Virus record (IMG/VR): IMGVR_UViG_3300030104_005063
Span: 25,361 to 89,360 of that record
Length of the DNA: 64,000 bases
Direction: 5' to 3' (one strand)
Origin: a virus
Both the position numbers and the translations under genes were made by a program. The notes under the pieces were generated by a model, which saw nothing but the letters and a program-made list of their open reading frames with translations, was not told the origin of the DNA and made no database searches. Positions 47,848 through 54,256 of this stretch are shown here, in pieces. Each line of letters opens with the position of its first letter. Position 1 is the stretch's first letter.

Positions 47848-47972
47848 TGGCAAAGAAAAGTAAAAGTCAATGGAAAGACTACAAGACTTTCACCTTGAAA
47901 GATGGAACTAAGTTTTTAGCTCGTGATGAGCATGATGCCAAACTGTATCGTCAAAAGGTAGGTGATGAGTAA
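47847..47972 (+). CDS. Small hypothetical protein
   Basis: A 41-residue ORF (KSQWKDYKTFTLKDGTKFLA is its core), starting in TAATG and overlapping the methyltransferase start by 8 bases. It may be a small beta hairpin. No family recognised. Confidence 0.55.
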   Translation: MAKKSKSQWKDYKTFTLKDGTKFLARDEHDAKLYRQKVGDE

Positions 47973-49572
47973 ATACTACTACGAGAGAAGTGGTATTATT
48001 GATTCAAAAATTAACATCACTTATCACGAGTTGTTCCTAAAAACTGATGAAGAACTTGACGAGTGGATTGAGGAAACTCGTCAATTTATTATTGAGGATT
48101 GGGATGAGCATGGAACACCACCGATGGTTGGTCAAAATATTGAAGACATCATTAAATCATTCAAGAAACTCAGAGAATATGATATACATGGTTTTATAGA
48201 AAAAGCTGATGATGGTCAGAGAAATGTAATCAAAAATTTCAACAAGTTTGCTAATGGTGTCAATCAGTTTTTTCCAACCATGCTTAAAACTCGTATTGGT
48301 GATGTTGGTGATGTAGGTCTTAATTCTATTTACGATAGAATAAAAGAAGATGTTAACAAAGACCTTTTCTTCAGAGCTATGAGAAGAGGAGTTCGTAGAG
48401 ACTCCATGTATAGTTTCAGTAAGTCTGTATCTTTGGACAGAAAAGAAAATGACAAGGGTGGACTACCTTATTGGAATGACGAGTCTGCATTAGAGTGGTT
48501 ACAATATTACCACAACAATAAATTAAAATTTAAAGATATTCGTTTATGGATTTCTAAATCACATCAAGAGAAGTATCTTAAACAATATGTGACTTTAACT
48601 GCGGATGAAATCAAACAAGCATATCAAGATGGGTTGATTACAGATGAGATGGTTACTAACTTGTGGTGTCCCACATTAAAGAAGTTAATGTCAGTTGAAG
48701 ACTTAGATGACCATGTTTCTACGAAAGGTGGAAAACTCAAGAGAAATGTTTTTATGATTAGATACTATAATGTTCATAAAAAACTATTCCCATCAGCATT
48801 TCAGATATTTAGGTTAAGTCTAAACTCACAACCAGCAGTTAACTTCCCACCACTTACAGCAAGACTTCTGTATGAAAAATATACCGACCACATTGATCAA
48901 GACCAACCACTCAATATATACGATCCTTCGAGTGGTTGGGGTGGTCGGATACTTGGTGCTATGGCTTCCAAGAAGAGGATACATTATATCGGAACAGATC
49001 CGAACACAGACAATTGGATAGATGAAATAGATAAGTCAAGATATGAATATGTTGCTGACTTTTTTAACGAGCATGGCTTGGAAACAAATCCATTTTGGGA
49101 AGAACCAAAAAATACTTATCATTATTTTCAGTTAGGTTCTGAACATGTTGGTGACCATCCTGACTTCCAACAATATAAAGGTAAGTTAGATATGGTGTTT
49201 ACTTCGCCACCTTACTTTGATAGAGAACAGTATTCGGAAGATGAAGAACAATCATTTAAGGCTTATCCGATGTATTCTGATTGGAGAGATAACTTTCTAA
49301 AACCAACATTAACAAATGCTTATGAAAGTCTAAGAAATGATAGATATTTACTTTGGAACATCGCTGACATTAAGTTGAATGGAGATAACTTTCATCCTTT
49401 AGAACAAGATAGCATTGACATTATTGAATCACTTGGTGGTAAGTATCAAGGTAAGTTAAAGATGTTAATGGCGTCTATGATTGGAGTTGACCAAAGTAAT
49501 GTAAAGAATAGTGTTTCTGTTGGTGGTCAAGTTATGAAATATGAACCAATATTTATCTTTCATAAACCTTAG
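47965..49572 (+). CDS. TSPPY-type SAM-dependent DNA methyltransferase with large N-terminal domain
   Basis: A 535-residue protein, started at the ATG at 47965 rather than the GTG three bases earlier. The N-terminal 270 residues are not recognised. PSSGWGGRILGAMASK near 325-340 is SAM motif I and VFTSPPYFDRE near 413-423 the catalytic (S)PPY motif of N4-cytosine or N6-adenine methylases. NYYHYF-like and WNIADIK segments follow. Two shorter relatives lie at 54997 and 56211. It begins a set with a PLP enzyme and two glycosyltransferases, which suggests DNA modification beyond methylation. Confidence 0.82.
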   Translation: MSKYYYERSGIIDSKINITYHELFLKTDEELDEWIEETRQFIIEDWDEHGTPPMVGQNIEDIIKSFKKLREYDIHGFIEKADDGQRNVIKNFNKFANGVNQFFPTMLKTRIGDVGDVGLNSIYDRIKEDVNKDLFFRAMRRGVRRDSMYSFSKSVSLDRKENDKGGLPYWNDESALEWLQYYHNNKLKFKDIRLWISKSHQEKYLKQYVTLTADEIKQAYQDGLITDEMVTNLWCPTLKKLMSVEDLDDHVSTKGGKLKRNVFMIRYYNVHKKLFPSAFQIFRLSLNSQPAVNFPPLTARLLYEKYTDHIDQDQPLNIYDPSSGWGGRILGAMASKKRIHYIGTDPNTDNWIDEIDKSRYEYVADFFNEHGLETNPFWEEPKNTYHYFQLGSEHVGDHPDFQQYKGKLDMVFTSPPYFDREQYSEDEEQSFKAYPMYSDWRDNFLKPTLTNAYESLRNDRYLLWNIADIKLNGDNFHPLEQDSIDIIESLGGKYQGKLKMLMASMIGVDQSNVKNSVSVGGQVMKYEPIFIFHKP

Positions 49573-50321
49573 TGGATATACTAGACTACAAACTAAACGA
49601 TATAGACTACGATGTAGACTTACCAAAGCCAGTTGTAAAAGAACATGATGGTTTCCGAGTAGTCCGAGATGACCTACTCAATGGTGGTACAAAAAGAAGA
49701 GCATTTACTGTCTATGTTAAAAATAAACCTGATGTAGAGGAGTTTGTTTATGCTTCACCAAGACAAGGTTATGCTCAGTTATCATTAGCATATGCGTGTA
49801 GAGACATGGGTAAAAAATGTACTGTAACTGTTCCACAAGGAAAGAGATATTGGTTGACAGATGCGGCTGAAGAGTTAGGTTGTAATATAATAGAAGTTCC
49901 GATGGGTTTTCTAACCAACATACAGGCAAAAGCTAGATACTATTGTCAAGATAATAATGCTCACTTAATTCCTTTTGGTGGTGACCATCCGATAATAGTT
50001 GAGACTATGAGAAGAACAGCATTAAGTCTTGGTATTAGACCATTAGAGGTTTGGACAGTTATGAGTAGTGGAGTGTTGAGTCGTGGTTTACAAGGAGCTT
50101 GGCCTGATGCGAAAGTGTATGGTGTTAGGATAGGACATAATACGACACCACAAGAACAAGGAAGAGCTGAGACTTATAAGTCAAGATACAAATTTCAACA
50201 AGAATGTAAAGAAGATGAAAGACCACCATTTCCAAGTTCGTTAACTTACGATAGTAAGGCTTGGTCTTTTATGAAGGAACATGCAAGTAAGAACGCTTTA
50301 TTTTGGAATGTAGGAAAATGA
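49572..50321 (+). CDS. Fold-type II PLP-dependent enzyme (ACC deaminase/threonine synthase-like)
   Basis: A 249-residue protein with a GTG start in TAGTG. NGGTKRRA near residues 37-44 holds the candidate PLP lysine. YASPRQGYAQLSLAYACRDMGKKC corresponds to the SxSxGNHG-like phosphate loop and VMSSGVLSRGLQG to the glycine-rich C-terminal loop of tryptophan-synthase-beta relatives. It is short for this fold. It sits between a DNA methyltransferase and a glycosyltransferase, so it may modify a base or its precursor. Activity not assigned. Confidence 0.68.
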   Translation: MDILDYKLNDIDYDVDLPKPVVKEHDGFRVVRDDLLNGGTKRRAFTVYVKNKPDVEEFVYASPRQGYAQLSLAYACRDMGKKCTVTVPQGKRYWLTDAAEELGCNIIEVPMGFLTNIQAKARYYCQDNNAHLIPFGGDHPIIVETMRRTALSLGIRPLEVWTVMSSGVLSRGLQGAWPDAKVYGVRIGHNTTPQEQGRAETYKSRYKFQQECKEDERPPFPSSLTYDSKAWSFMKEHASKNALFWNVGK

Positions 50322-51673
50322 ACGATTTTTTTAGTTATAATAAAGAGGTAAAATTACAGAAGACAATTAGGATATTAGTTTATCCAAACATAACTTACCT
50401 AAAGGATTTAAAGAAAGATAGTTACATACAGGCTATAAAACAACAAATATCAACATTAAATGAAATTAGGGATGACCTATGGTTCTATCTGATTTTACCT
50501 GAACCCGTTGAAGATTTGGATTTCAAAAATGTGAGTCAACATTTCATGAAGTTTCCATCTTACATACCAGCGATGAGGGTTCATTTTGACACCTTTGATT
50601 TTTATAAAAATGTGACTAAAAAGTTTGACTTTGATTTGGTAATGTCTCATTTGCCAGAACACACCCATCAAATAAAAAATATGTTTTTTAACAAGACACA
50701 CCATTGGCCAAACTTATTTGGATATTGTCATTGGTTTGATTTTAAAAATACAGCAACATGGGAAGTCAGTTCGTTTAATCAAAATATAACTGGTCTATTG
50801 GAGTATGATAGATGTTATCTAAACACCGAGTATCAGAAACAACTGGTGTTGACAGAGATGAAGGATACATTTAATCAAGATACTATAGATAAGGTAGATG
50901 ACATATTAAAGGTTCAGTATCTTGGTGTGAAAGAATCCGATATACTTGAAAAGACAAATGAAAATACTGATAAAATAATTGTATTTAATCACAGACCAGA
51001 AGAATATAAAGACTTCAATAATTTCATGTCCATAGTAGACGAGTTAAGAGAGCAAAGACAAGATTTCAAGGTGTGGATACCACTATTAAATAAACCTAAC
51101 AGAGATTATGTTATTACTGATAAATTTGAGAAGGCTGGTTATTACGAAAAGTTAAGTAAGTGTCGTGTTGGATTGTCACCTAAACAAAAGTATGGTGGGT
51201 GGAGTGTTGCTACAACCGATGGTTTAATGAATGGAACACCTTATATTATGTATGATGAACTATATTATAAGGAACTACAATCTAATGCTGAGTTTTTTAA
51301 GACAAATGGTCAAGCTGTAGATTTGTTAAACAAATACTTGGATGACAACAATCACAGAAATGAGATGGGTAAGAGAGGATTAGATTGGATGAGAGACAAC
51401 TTGTTGTTTAAAGATAGTATGAAAGAAATGTCAGACTATATAGATAATCTTGTGGATGACTTACCAACTCTGAAAAAGTCAACAAGGATAGAAGATATAA
51501 AAGAAATGATAAGGCATTCTTATTTTGGTATTACCAAAGGAGAGTTAATACAAAAACTAAAGTGGGGTGGTGGTATAACTTGGACGCCATACAGAAGGGC
51601 ACTCATGGCAGACTCGAATATCTATGATGCTTGTGACGCCACACCCACTTATTATTGGAGTGAAGATGATTGA
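50318..51673 (+). CDS. GT-B glycosyltransferase of the modification island
   Basis: A 451-residue protein started at the ATG at 50318 (ATGA). The donor half contains IIVFNHRPEEYKDFNNF near 223-239 and KCRVGLSPKQKYGGWSVATTDGLMNGTPYIMY near 287-318, a GT4-like pattern. The N-terminal half (RILVYPNITYLKDLKK, then YCHWFDFKN) is acceptor-side. The C-terminal 60 residues (KSTRIEDIKEMIRHSYF) form an extra helical part. Unlike the GTs at 10-38 kb it lies with DNA-methylase genes, so DNA may be its acceptor; this is inferred. Confidence 0.72.
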   Translation: MNDFFSYNKEVKLQKTIRILVYPNITYLKDLKKDSYIQAIKQQISTLNEIRDDLWFYLILPEPVEDLDFKNVSQHFMKFPSYIPAMRVHFDTFDFYKNVTKKFDFDLVMSHLPEHTHQIKNMFFNKTHHWPNLFGYCHWFDFKNTATWEVSSFNQNITGLLEYDRCYLNTEYQKQLVLTEMKDTFNQDTIDKVDDILKVQYLGVKESDILEKTNENTDKIIVFNHRPEEYKDFNNFMSIVDELREQRQDFKVWIPLLNKPNRDYVITDKFEKAGYYEKLSKCRVGLSPKQKYGGWSVATTDGLMNGTPYIMYDELYYKELQSNAEFFKTNGQAVDLLNKYLDDNNHRNEMGKRGLDWMRDNLLFKDSMKEMSDYIDNLVDDLPTLKKSTRIEDIKEMIRHSYFGITKGELIQKLKWGGGITWTPYRRALMADSNIYDACDATPTYYWSEDD

Positions 51674-52490
51674 TAAAATTTATATACCCACGTTTCGTAG
51701 AGTGAATGACCAAACTACCTTTGATGGTTTGCCAGATGAGTATAAAGAAAAGGTAGTTATGGTAGTTCAAGAACAAGAGAGGGATGAGTACAAATATGAC
51801 GTGGAATATTTGGTAGTTGGTGACAATATTGGTATCGCTAAAACAAGAGAGTTAATCTGTAGAGATGCGGGTAATAAGAGATTTTACATGTTAGATGACC
51901 AACTTGTCATTCAGAGAAGAAATGCTAAATATTTTGGTGACGAGTCAAATATGGATACTGCTAAAAGAGTGTGTACAAAAGAAGACTTAGATGATATGTT
52001 CACTCTGTTTCATGGTTGGATGGATGATGAAAATATAATGCACATTGGACATAAAGCATCAGCGATGCCACCTGGCAAACGATACTTAGAAAACCAAGCT
52101 ATTACACAGGCGACCATGATAGATGGTAGAGAACTTTCAAAGTTTATTGACGACATAAATTGGGATTTGTGTTACTTAGGTTCGGATAGTAGATTTACAT
52201 TAGATTGTTTGGTTAACGGATATAAGAATAGAATATCAGATGAGTTCTGTCATTTTAAAAAAGGTATGTGGGCGCCTGGTGGTTGTCAAAGTAGTGGTCG
52301 AACTGTAGAGATGTGGGAAAAAGAACATATGAAATTGATGGACTATTATCCTGAGTTCGTTTACATACACAACGATAAGATGAAACCTTGGGGTAAATAT
52401 GCTGACAACTTTGGTGAGTTCGTTGAATTCAGATATAAATGGAAAGATGCGTACACTTCATCTAAAAATATAACCCATGATTTTTTCTAA
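51666..52490 (+). CDS. GT-A glycosyltransferase resembling TET-associated (TAGT) transferases
   Basis: A 274-residue protein started at the ATG at 51666. DKIYIPTFRRVNDQTTFDGLP, VVMVVQEQERDEY and NIGIAKTRELICRDAG are reminiscent of the TET-associated glycosyltransferase family, which is thought to act on hydroxylated bases in phage DNA. The DxD site is MLDDQL near residue 78. DLCYLGSDSRFTLDCLVNG follows. No TET/JBP oxygenase is visible near it. ATGA-type overlap with the GT-B gene. The family call is from memory and needs a profile search. Confidence 0.6.
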   Translation: MIDKIYIPTFRRVNDQTTFDGLPDEYKEKVVMVVQEQERDEYKYDVEYLVVGDNIGIAKTRELICRDAGNKRFYMLDDQLVIQRRNAKYFGDESNMDTAKRVCTKEDLDDMFTLFHGWMDDENIMHIGHKASAMPPGKRYLENQAITQATMIDGRELSKFIDDINWDLCYLGSDSRFTLDCLVNGYKNRISDEFCHFKKGMWAPGGCQSSGRTVEMWEKEHMKLMDYYPEFVYIHNDKMKPWGKYADNFGEFVEFRYKWKDAYTSSKNITHDFF

Positions 52491-52570: not shown

Positions 52571-54256
52571 ATGAAATTAGTTAATGAAAATAATTTAGAG
52601 AGTTTAAAAGGTTTTAATTATGTAAGGATGTTTTTGGGTGGTTACACTGGTAACATCCAATTTGGTACTTACATGGAACTTTTCAGAAGTGGAATTATTG
52701 ACCCGAAACCAACTTATCAAAGACCTTATACATATGATGACGAGTTGGGTACTTATACAGGTAATACCTGGCAGAAGAATTTAATCTCAAACTTTTTGAG
52801 AGGAGATAAGATACCACCTCTTTCTTTAAGACAGGTTAGTGACAAACCAATAGATTTTCAAGATTATAACCAACAATACATTGAACTTTTTATACAAGAA
52901 CTGTTAGATGGTGGACACAGAACTCGTACATTTTTCAACTTCTATCAAGGTTTACTAACTGTACCAAAGGGATTTACTTTGGAGATAAATGGTATGTCAT
53001 ATGACTTAGGTGAGAAGAGTTGGGTTGAGTTCCCACCAGTAGTCAAAGACCATTTGTCTAAGACTTTGGTTTTTGATGTTGATGTTTACACTACTTTAAC
53101 TGATACATTAGCTGGAGAGAAGTTTAGAACTTTGAATAACTTACATGTCATGACCGATCCACAATGGAGAAACTCATACAGAAAACAGATTTCTTATAGT
53201 TGTCGTCAGTTGGGTTCTTTTGATAGTAGTGAGTTTGAGATTTTCACAAAGAGAGAGAATGGTGTAAACAAACTATTATACTTGAGTTCAAAAGTATCTC
53301 ATACAGGTCGTGTGACAGATGAAATTGTTTCCGTACTTTCAATACGAATTAAAGAGAACTTTTTGAGTAATATCGAACCTGATAAATATCCATCTCTTGT
53401 ACCGAGTAAGACAAAAATAGATGATGTTTATGAGAATGATTTACACGAGAAGAAAGGGGAGTCAGGTTCTTACCACATAAATGGTAAGATAATGAAGAGA
53501 GTAAAGTTAATATTGTCTGTGATGAACAAAATCATTGTCAACAATAGTAACGACAAAAGATTCAAGAAGATTAATACACTTTGGACAAAGAGTTCACTGG
53601 TTAAACTTGGATTGATGTTAAATGATTGGATTGAGAAGTATGGACACTTTTCAATAGAGAAAATGGATGAGAATCTTTTCTTCAACAAGTTAACTTCCTA
53701 TCTGTTGACTACTACCAAAGAACTAAAGATGGTTGAGAACTGTCGTTATGAGGTTGTGAATGGTAAGTTAACAATTGTTCACAAAAAGATTATGAAGTCT
53801 GAAAGGTCTAAGTATAGATTTCAAGGTGTGTGGAAGACTGGTATTAACATCAATGACTACGAGTGGTTGAAGGGTGTCATTGAAATTGACATGGAAAAGA
53901 ATCTATCCAATTGGGGTATAGTGATACTAGATAGTCAAAGAGATTTCAGTAAGAAACAAAGACAACAGATAGAAGACAGAGATGGTTGTGTGTGTAATCA
54001 TCCTGGTTGTAATGTGACAGAAGGTCTACAAGTTGACCACATTAAACCTTGGAGTAAGGGTGGTAAGACTCACATCGACAACGGACAATTGTTATGTTCC
54101 GAACACAACTTACAGAAGACCGACACAATGGATGACGAACAACTGGTTGACCTATCTACAGAAGACTTACAAGGTTTGGTGATGATGGGTAAGATAGACT
54201 TAGATAAGGTTTTCGAAATACAAGAAATAAAGAAACAAAGAGGTATAGAATCATGA
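52571..54256 (+). CDS. DUF262-HNH protein resembling GmrSD-type modification-dependent nucleases
   Basis: A 561-residue protein. The N-terminal ParB/DUF262-like part shows KPTYQRPYTYDDE near 37-49, LISNFLRGDKIPPLSL and LLDGGHRTRTFFNF near 113-126. The C-terminal HNH nuclease is CNHPGCNVTEGLQVDHIKPWSKGG near 475-498, with CSEHNLQ. This is the GmrS/GmrD type of fusion, which in bacteria cuts glucosylated or otherwise modified foreign DNA, though the C-terminal nuclease here is the simple HNH type. It has its own promoter, right after the putative base-modification genes. Confidence 0.78.
   Translation: MKLVNENNLESLKGFNYVRMFLGGYTGNIQFGTYMELFRSGIIDPKPTYQRPYTYDDELGTYTGNTWQKNLISNFLRGDKIPPLSLRQVSDKPIDFQDYNQQYIELFIQELLDGGHRTRTFFNFYQGLLTVPKGFTLEINGMSYDLGEKSWVEFPPVVKDHLSKTLVFDVDVYTTLTDTLAGEKFRTLNNLHVMTDPQWRNSYRKQISYSCRQLGSFDSSEFEIFTKRENGVNKLLYLSSKVSHTGRVTDEIVSVLSIRIKENFLSNIEPDKYPSLVPSKTKIDDVYENDLHEKKGESGSYHINGKIMKRVKLILSVMNKIIVNNSNDKRFKKINTLWTKSSLVKLGLMLNDWIEKYGHFSIEKMDENLFFNKLTSYLLTTTKELKMVENCRYEVVNGKLTIVHKKIMKSERSKYRFQGVWKTGININDYEWLKGVIEIDMEKNLSNWGIVILDSQRDFSKKQRQQIEDRDGCVCNHPGCNVTEGLQVDHIKPWSKGGKTHIDNGQLLCSEHNLQKTDTMDDEQLVDLSTEDLQGLVMMGKIDLDKVFEIQEIKKQRGIES

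Follow-up and report, generated by a model that had tools for sequence, protein, structure and literature searches.

Most of the known hypermodifications of phage DNA begin with a hydroxymethylated pyrimidine; one case, described in 2025, begins with carboxy-S-adenosylmethionine (carboxy-SAM). The M6/Yuavirus cassette for 5-(2-aminoethyl)-dU (dU, deoxyuridine) uses a hydroxymethylase, the HMUDK kinase, ADDT and a radical SAM protein, together with the pyridoxal phosphate (PLP) enzyme gp52, which is reported to be a decarboxylase of a DNA-linked amino acid. In the T2/T6 system, a glycosyltransferase of the GT-B fold (the T4 α- or β-GT) acts first, and TAGT, a PF20691 protein with a GT-A fold (β-glucosyl-HMC α-glucosyltransferase), adds the second glucose (PMC13216743). 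In the CmoA–CmoX–CmoY system of Synechococcus phage S-B43, which gives 5-carboxymethylcytosine, the methyltransferase homolog CmoX uses carboxy-SAM, the carboxylate of which is read by an arginine, and installs a SAM-derived handle larger than methyl for later steps; ParBc proteins are often encoded nearby (PMC12783734). Here, we analyse a window of 64,000 bases (bases 25361–89360 of the 100,504-base IMG/VR virus record IMGVR_UViG_3300030104_005063, which may be incomplete), in which four genes of a marine virus, MT1, PLP, GTB and TAGT, encode a DNA methyltransferase homolog, a PLP enzyme and two glycosyltransferases. We consider it probable that these genes form an operon for DNA hypermodification, with MT1 and PLP acting one after the other on a single base. 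The locus shares the clade of its PLP enzyme with M6, the PF20691 family with T2/T6 and a candidate SAM-derived handle with S-B43. However, an SPPY methyltransferase partners PLP here in place of the M6 enzymes, no hydroxymethylase was detected, in contrast to T2/T6, and, whereas CmoX is a C5-cytosine enzyme with an SPPC motif, MT1 and its relatives are of the SPPY amino type, with PLP or S-adenosylmethionine decarboxylase (SpeD) as partners.

The four-gene operon

The four genes lie on the + strand and overlap end to end (Table 1), as the original prediction had read them. PLP starts with GTG, and the MT1/PLP junction is TAGTG; for GTB and TAGT, the start codons ATG 50318 and ATG 51666, which overlap the stop codons of PLP and GTB, respectively, were preferred to TTG at 50303 and to a start at 51624. 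The same gene order recurs in dozens of IMG/VR contigs, and the arrangement is therefore not due to chance.

The predicted identities of the products, an (S)PPY methyltransferase, a fold-type II PLP enzyme, a GT-B glycosyltransferase and a TAGT-like glycosyltransferase, agree with the profiles, motifs and structural model. MT1 combines the SAM motif I and the (S/D)PPY motif IV of amino DNA methyltransferases (N6_N4_Mtase) in a class I fold; its match to this family (E 2e-5) is slightly below the Pfam cut-off, and its motif IV is invariant among 14 relatives. PLP scores 35.5 bits with PALP (cut-off 35) and E 2e-34 with PHROG 7093, and the PLP lysine is conserved. It aligns over its full length with M6 gp52 at 23% identity, with a common PLP lysine and a common PFP..YDxKAW..FWN C-terminus, and on its sequence it belongs to the clade of M6 gp52. 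TAGT reaches 38.3 bits against the curated PF20691 cut-off of 27.5 (PHROG 842, E 4e-21). The position of TAGT above its cut-off and that of PLP in the M6 gp52 clade support the general call of DNA hypermodification. A comparison of PLP and TAGT with PDB sequences gave no useful match.

The methyltransferase–PLP pair

With the PLP protein as query, IMG/VR yielded 59 loci. In most of the nearest marine relatives, the end of MT1 lies 3–16 nucleotides (nt) from the start of PLP, or a single nuclease-like gene stands between them. PLP relatives at 35–43% occur in Rhodobacterales and Rhizobiales contigs, which are presumably prophages, mostly directly behind a ParB-type (S)PPY methyltransferase (ParB-MTase), and in most alphaproteobacterial loci the end of the (S)PPY methyltransferase gene lies within about 15 nt of PLP. 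Microcystis phage Mae-JY30 has overlapping genes for PLP and for an uninterrupted methyltransferase of the same kind, while Erythrobacter phages R6L and ZS04 encode this kind of methyltransferase with the PLP domain inserted after motif I and before motif IV; the PLP domain found at the same place in Pseudanabaena phage Pam4 is more divergent. Since PLP can be inserted within the methyltransferase, the two very probably have a common substrate. The single island of the original prediction stands in so far as the four genes overlap and are conserved, but, judged from these loci, the methyltransferase–PLP pair is an old core that occurs widely without glycosyltransferases, and the latter are a lineage-specific, swappable addition. 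Separately, R6L encodes a PAPS-reductase-like protein (gp7, L002:4392–5435) about 1.4 kb upstream of its fusion gene.

By Pfam, gp51–gp56 of M6 are ADDT, PALP, radical SAM, HMUDK, HMUDK_hel and Nmad5, an order that agrees with the cassette published for SN1, a near-identical phage (PMC9476957). The profiles PF00303, PF18748 and PF18724 (thymidylate synthase/hydroxymethylase, HMUDK and ADDT), all three of which match the M6 control, have no match in R6L, ZS04, Mae-JY30 or the window's 100 kb record, which is possibly a fragment, and, again with M6 as the positive control, its radical SAM protein has none in the same four. As these genomes gave no match to the enzymes of the M6 route, the substrate of PLP is probably not derived from that route, and the methyltransferase is its natural and probable source; a 5-hydroxymethyl route as in M6 or T4 was set aside for the complete phages with the PLP module and for the window's record. 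The TET dioxygenase profile PF12851 gave no match in this possibly incomplete record, and its positive control also gave none. A carboxy-SAM/CmoX route was likewise set aside: CmoA (TIGR00740) has no match here, with the E. coli positive control matched, and motif IV of MT1 is TSPPYF, not SPPC.

Exchange of the partner enzyme

In Croceibacter phage P2559S and Pseudomonas phage ZRG1, a SpeD gene (PF02675) overlaps the end of the methyltransferase gene, and PLP is absent. Scanning with a methyltransferase alignment and subsequent classification gave 54 SpeD-linked, 75 PLP-linked and 29 partnerless methyltransferase domains, and none with both partners; these sets come from separate scans with different seeds, and their sizes are not population frequencies. 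At the position eight residues after the motif I Asp (residue 8), every one of the 75 PLP-linked domains has Arg and every one of the 54 SpeD-linked domains has Phe or Met, and the partnerless domains have Arg (19), Lys (eight) or Phe (two). MT1 and all of its aligned relatives have Arg at this position. Other alignment positions also separate the SpeD-linked set, as a clade would be expected to show. On a tree of 72 sequences, the SpeD label changes four times and the PLP label three times, compared with means of 22.8 and 16.9 for shuffled labels, and a SpeD-less lineage nested within the SpeD clade has Lys at residue 8. A gene for a QueC-like PP-loop ATPase is found behind four of the eight Lys-type methyltransferases and behind none of the 150 others; some of the PP-loop ATPase loci also carry an unknown protein of 162 amino acids. 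The Ser, His and Cys named as catalytic in SpeD (PMC10407285) are kept in 55 of 56 methyltransferase-linked SpeDs.

Two further loci concern related partners. In mycobacteriophage AlanGrant, another PALP enzyme (gp2, L314:1406–2275; annotated as nucleoside deaminase / Trp synthase beta superfamily) is encoded by a gene overlapping that of a ParB-MTase. A cyanophage speD serving such a methyltransferase was considered for P-SSM4 and found to be unsupported; this gene lies between uvsY and a 2-oxoglutarate (2OG) oxygenase gene, with no annotated methyltransferase within 3.5 kb.

Proposed mechanism

We propose that MT1 would probably flip its target base, which the analogy to SPPY enzymes suggests to be cytosine (modified at N4) or adenine (at N6), and would transfer to it a SAM-derived group, for which 3-amino-3-carboxypropyl (acp) is considered likelier than methyl. 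The basic side chain of residue 8 would hold the carboxylate of the aminocarboxypropyl group of SAM, and PLP would subsequently act on this amino acid on the DNA, most likely by decarboxylation to 3-aminopropyl; its M6 relative is reported to decarboxylate another DNA-linked amino acid. The Arg of the PLP-linked methyltransferases speaks against decarboxylation of free SAM by PLP. In the SpeD version, the carboxylate would be removed before the transfer, with aminopropyl coming from decarboxylated SAM, and a basic residue 8 would therefore no longer be needed; the PP-loop ATPase could activate the same carboxylate. In the lineage of the window, GTB would add a first sugar and TAGT a second, which would give a bulky DNA that is poorly read by host nucleases. 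By analogy, CmoA/CmoX is the closest proven precedent for such a scheme.

As a tentative extension, these systems may represent a widespread and unrecognised class of phage DNA alkyltransferases putting acp or aminopropyl on bases, in which a methyltransferase is combined interchangeably with SpeD, with PLP (including the inserted form) or with a PP-loop ATPase, and to which the lineage of the window adds one or two sugars. If this is true, SAM and one decarboxylase would constitute a further, simple entry to DNA that bears amines, and it would occur in many phages and prophages in which the enzyme is at present annotated as 'DNA methyltransferase', some of them isolates from culturable hosts; it would also explain some of the phage-encoded S-adenosylmethionine decarboxylases that are usually read as polyamine genes, and would provide enzymes for placing amines on DNA. 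The sequence rule that links residue 8 to the partner makes the idea directly testable. No description of a phage DNA modification by a methyltransferase with PLP or with SpeD was found in the literature searched, the coverage of which was limited and does not establish absence.

Several points weigh against these proposals. The partner has switched independently only a few times, and shared descent therefore explains part of the match between residue 8 and the partner; moreover, two partnerless methyltransferases retain Phe. Many members of the family are partnerless and may be ordinary methylases; the ParB-fused N6_N4 phage methyltransferases Enterococcus phiFL3A gp36 and Listeria B054 gp77 belong to the same family as the PLP- and SpeD-linked enzymes but have no partner decarboxylase adjoining. 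Ornithine or arginine, not SAM, is the substrate of some phage SpeD homologs (PMC10407285). The residue 8 rule was found in the ParB-MTases, to which MT1 is distantly related (about 23% identity), and its transfer to MT1 is therefore by analogy, via motif I alone. In another marine sub-clade, PLP is separate from MT1. The weakest point of the joint story is that an aminopropyl group offers no hydroxyl to a sugar.

Alternative explanations

The absence of a hydroxyl on an aminopropyl base also favours the explanation that survives best among the alternatives, namely that the glycosyltransferases serve an acceptor of their own, which could be a virion protein, a host glycan or a different base modification, and have no more than a variable slot in common with the methyltransferase–PLP pair. 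This is quite possible, although it is not the reading that we favour. GTB matches Glycos_transf_1 below the cut-off (E 1e-4), and its model has a GT-B fold (mean pLDDT 78; best Foldseek E 4e-13, target TM up to 0.74, GT4 matches). Among solved structures, the nearest folds belong to GT4 enzymes of small molecules and glycans and to one 'phage HY126 glycosyltransferase', and GTB is not a recognised T4 α- or β-GT. The grouping of both glycosyltransferases with cell-surface enzymes, which the original prediction had named as evidence to the contrary, is thus not seen for TAGT, and the picture is mixed for GTB. The relatives of GTB at 55–59% mostly adjoin a DruA-domain gene, beside nuclease-like genes and without PLP, so that GTB may serve another acceptor, and some PLP loci have no glycosyltransferase at all.

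The order of the genes in the slot argues against a separate acceptor. The slot 3′ of PLP holds GTB or another gene, c17; TAGT is often present as well, as is a nuclease-like gene in most cases, and an HD gene and MT2 follow. The c17 protein has no match in Pfam, PHROGs or the PDB, and treating GTB and c17 as one family was not supported by profile comparison. Among 42 distinct marine-type PLPs, 36 had at least 400 nt downstream and were testable, and GTB or c17 directly follows PLP, with an overlap, in 24 of these and is nearby in two more; with MT1 upstream of PLP, it is next or nearby in 20 of 22 distinct marine loci. TAGT, a member of a known DNA-glucosyltransferase family, adjoins GTB or c17 in all 15 PLP loci that have it, which fits the order of first and second sugar in T2/T6. 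The small helix–helix–helix–strand–strand tail at the C-terminus of the GTB model is similar to a winged helix, with DNA binding as a possible function. The two glycosyltransferases resemble neither each other nor, by BLAST or profiles, any open reading frame of 10.9–38.4 kb, as had been noted originally. This glycan block (window:10899–38338) of about 32 genes, with a GDP-mannose dehydratase-like protein, an epimerase, a dTDP-sugar isomerase, an aminotransferase and glycosyltransferase families, could supply donor sugars.

In a second alternative, which we regard as unlikely but worth retaining, the operon and the DUF262-HNH gene together form a phage-borne restriction-modification system, in which the modification protects the phage DNA and the nuclease cuts unmodified DNA of the host or of rivals. 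The slot between PLP and HD (L005–L063) indeed contains differing nuclease-like genes in most relatives (DUF262-HNH, DGQHR-HNH, ParB-like, GIY-YIG, HATPase and AAA), one of which scores as GmrSD_N, and these are possibly phage-borne restriction genes; however, the slot proteins have only weak matches in PADLOC, the usual target of DUF262/GmrSD proteins is modified DNA and HNH genes are often found as mobile passengers. Such a system is compatible with the sequential action of MT1 and PLP.

We doubt rather more that MT1, as an ordinary methylase, marks the phage DNA at N4 of cytosine or N6 of adenine and that PLP has another role, for example making or scavenging an amino acid, the pair staying together because both are early genes. 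MT1 and the ParB-MTases do match the ordinary N6_N4_Mtase family, Foldseek returns ordinary methyltransferases, and the many relatives without a partner gene point the same way. Against this stand the insertion of PLP in the methyltransferase in three phage records of two kinds, the tight adjacency across distant lineages, the PLP clade that includes gp52 of the DNA-modification cassette of M6 and the partner gene that tracks a residue of the SAM motif. Finally, installation of the group by PLP itself, in which aminoacrylate from serine or a similar amino acid would be added by β-replacement to a base presented by the methyltransferase domain and this domain would mainly recognise and flip or methylate the base, is improbable: such replacement is common among fold-type II PLP enzymes and the inserted PLP would suit a shared active centre, but the SAM motif and the catalytic TSPPY of the methyltransferase are invariant, SpeD, which lacks such chemistry, takes the slot of PLP, and the M6 relative is said to be a decarboxylase.

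Other features

Table 1. Positions of the operon genes and of related features; L numbers denote other loci.
Feature	Position	Strand	Description
MT1	47965..49572	+	Homolog of (S)PPY DNA methyltransferases of the amino type; motif I carries Arg328, motif IV reads TSPPYF; proposed to transfer a group derived from SAM
PLP	49572..50321	+	Fold-type II PLP enzyme, M6 gp52 clade; PLP lysine K41 conserved; proposed action on a DNA-linked group
GTB	50318..51673	+	GT4-like GT-B glycosyltransferase; small C-terminal winged-helix-like tail; proposed to add the first sugar
TAGT	51666..52490	+	PF20691 glycosyltransferase; proposed to add the second sugar
DUF262-HNH nuclease-like protein	52571..54256	+	Variable slot adjoining the operon; tied to the modification genes by position only
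ParB-(S)PPY methyltransferase overlapping a SpeD gene	L313:1356-3201 (ZRG1), L315:1356-2997 (P2559S), L318-L384		Motif I GD[TS]VFG, not GGSVRG
QueC-like PP-loop ATPase	L347:1959-3143, L349:4056-5210, L390:1316-2260, L394:4271-5326		Behind Lys-type methyltransferases (GDTQKG, GGEQTKG)
GTB relatives in T4-like marine phages	L173:4862-5974 and L106-L176		Preceded by a DruA (PF14236) protein, often separated from it by a nuclease-like gene of the same kind

The tail sheath protein of the window virus is nearest to that of Flavobacterium phage immuto (46%), which places the virus among the T4-like myoviruses and points to a host that is probably a member of the Bacteroidota. The genome encodes three further (S)PPY methyltransferase paralogs (window:54997–57434 and L065:1760–2824). 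It also contains a long gene (L065:4937–5500 to window:3–2345), the product of which, by eye, resembles a TonB-dependent receptor.

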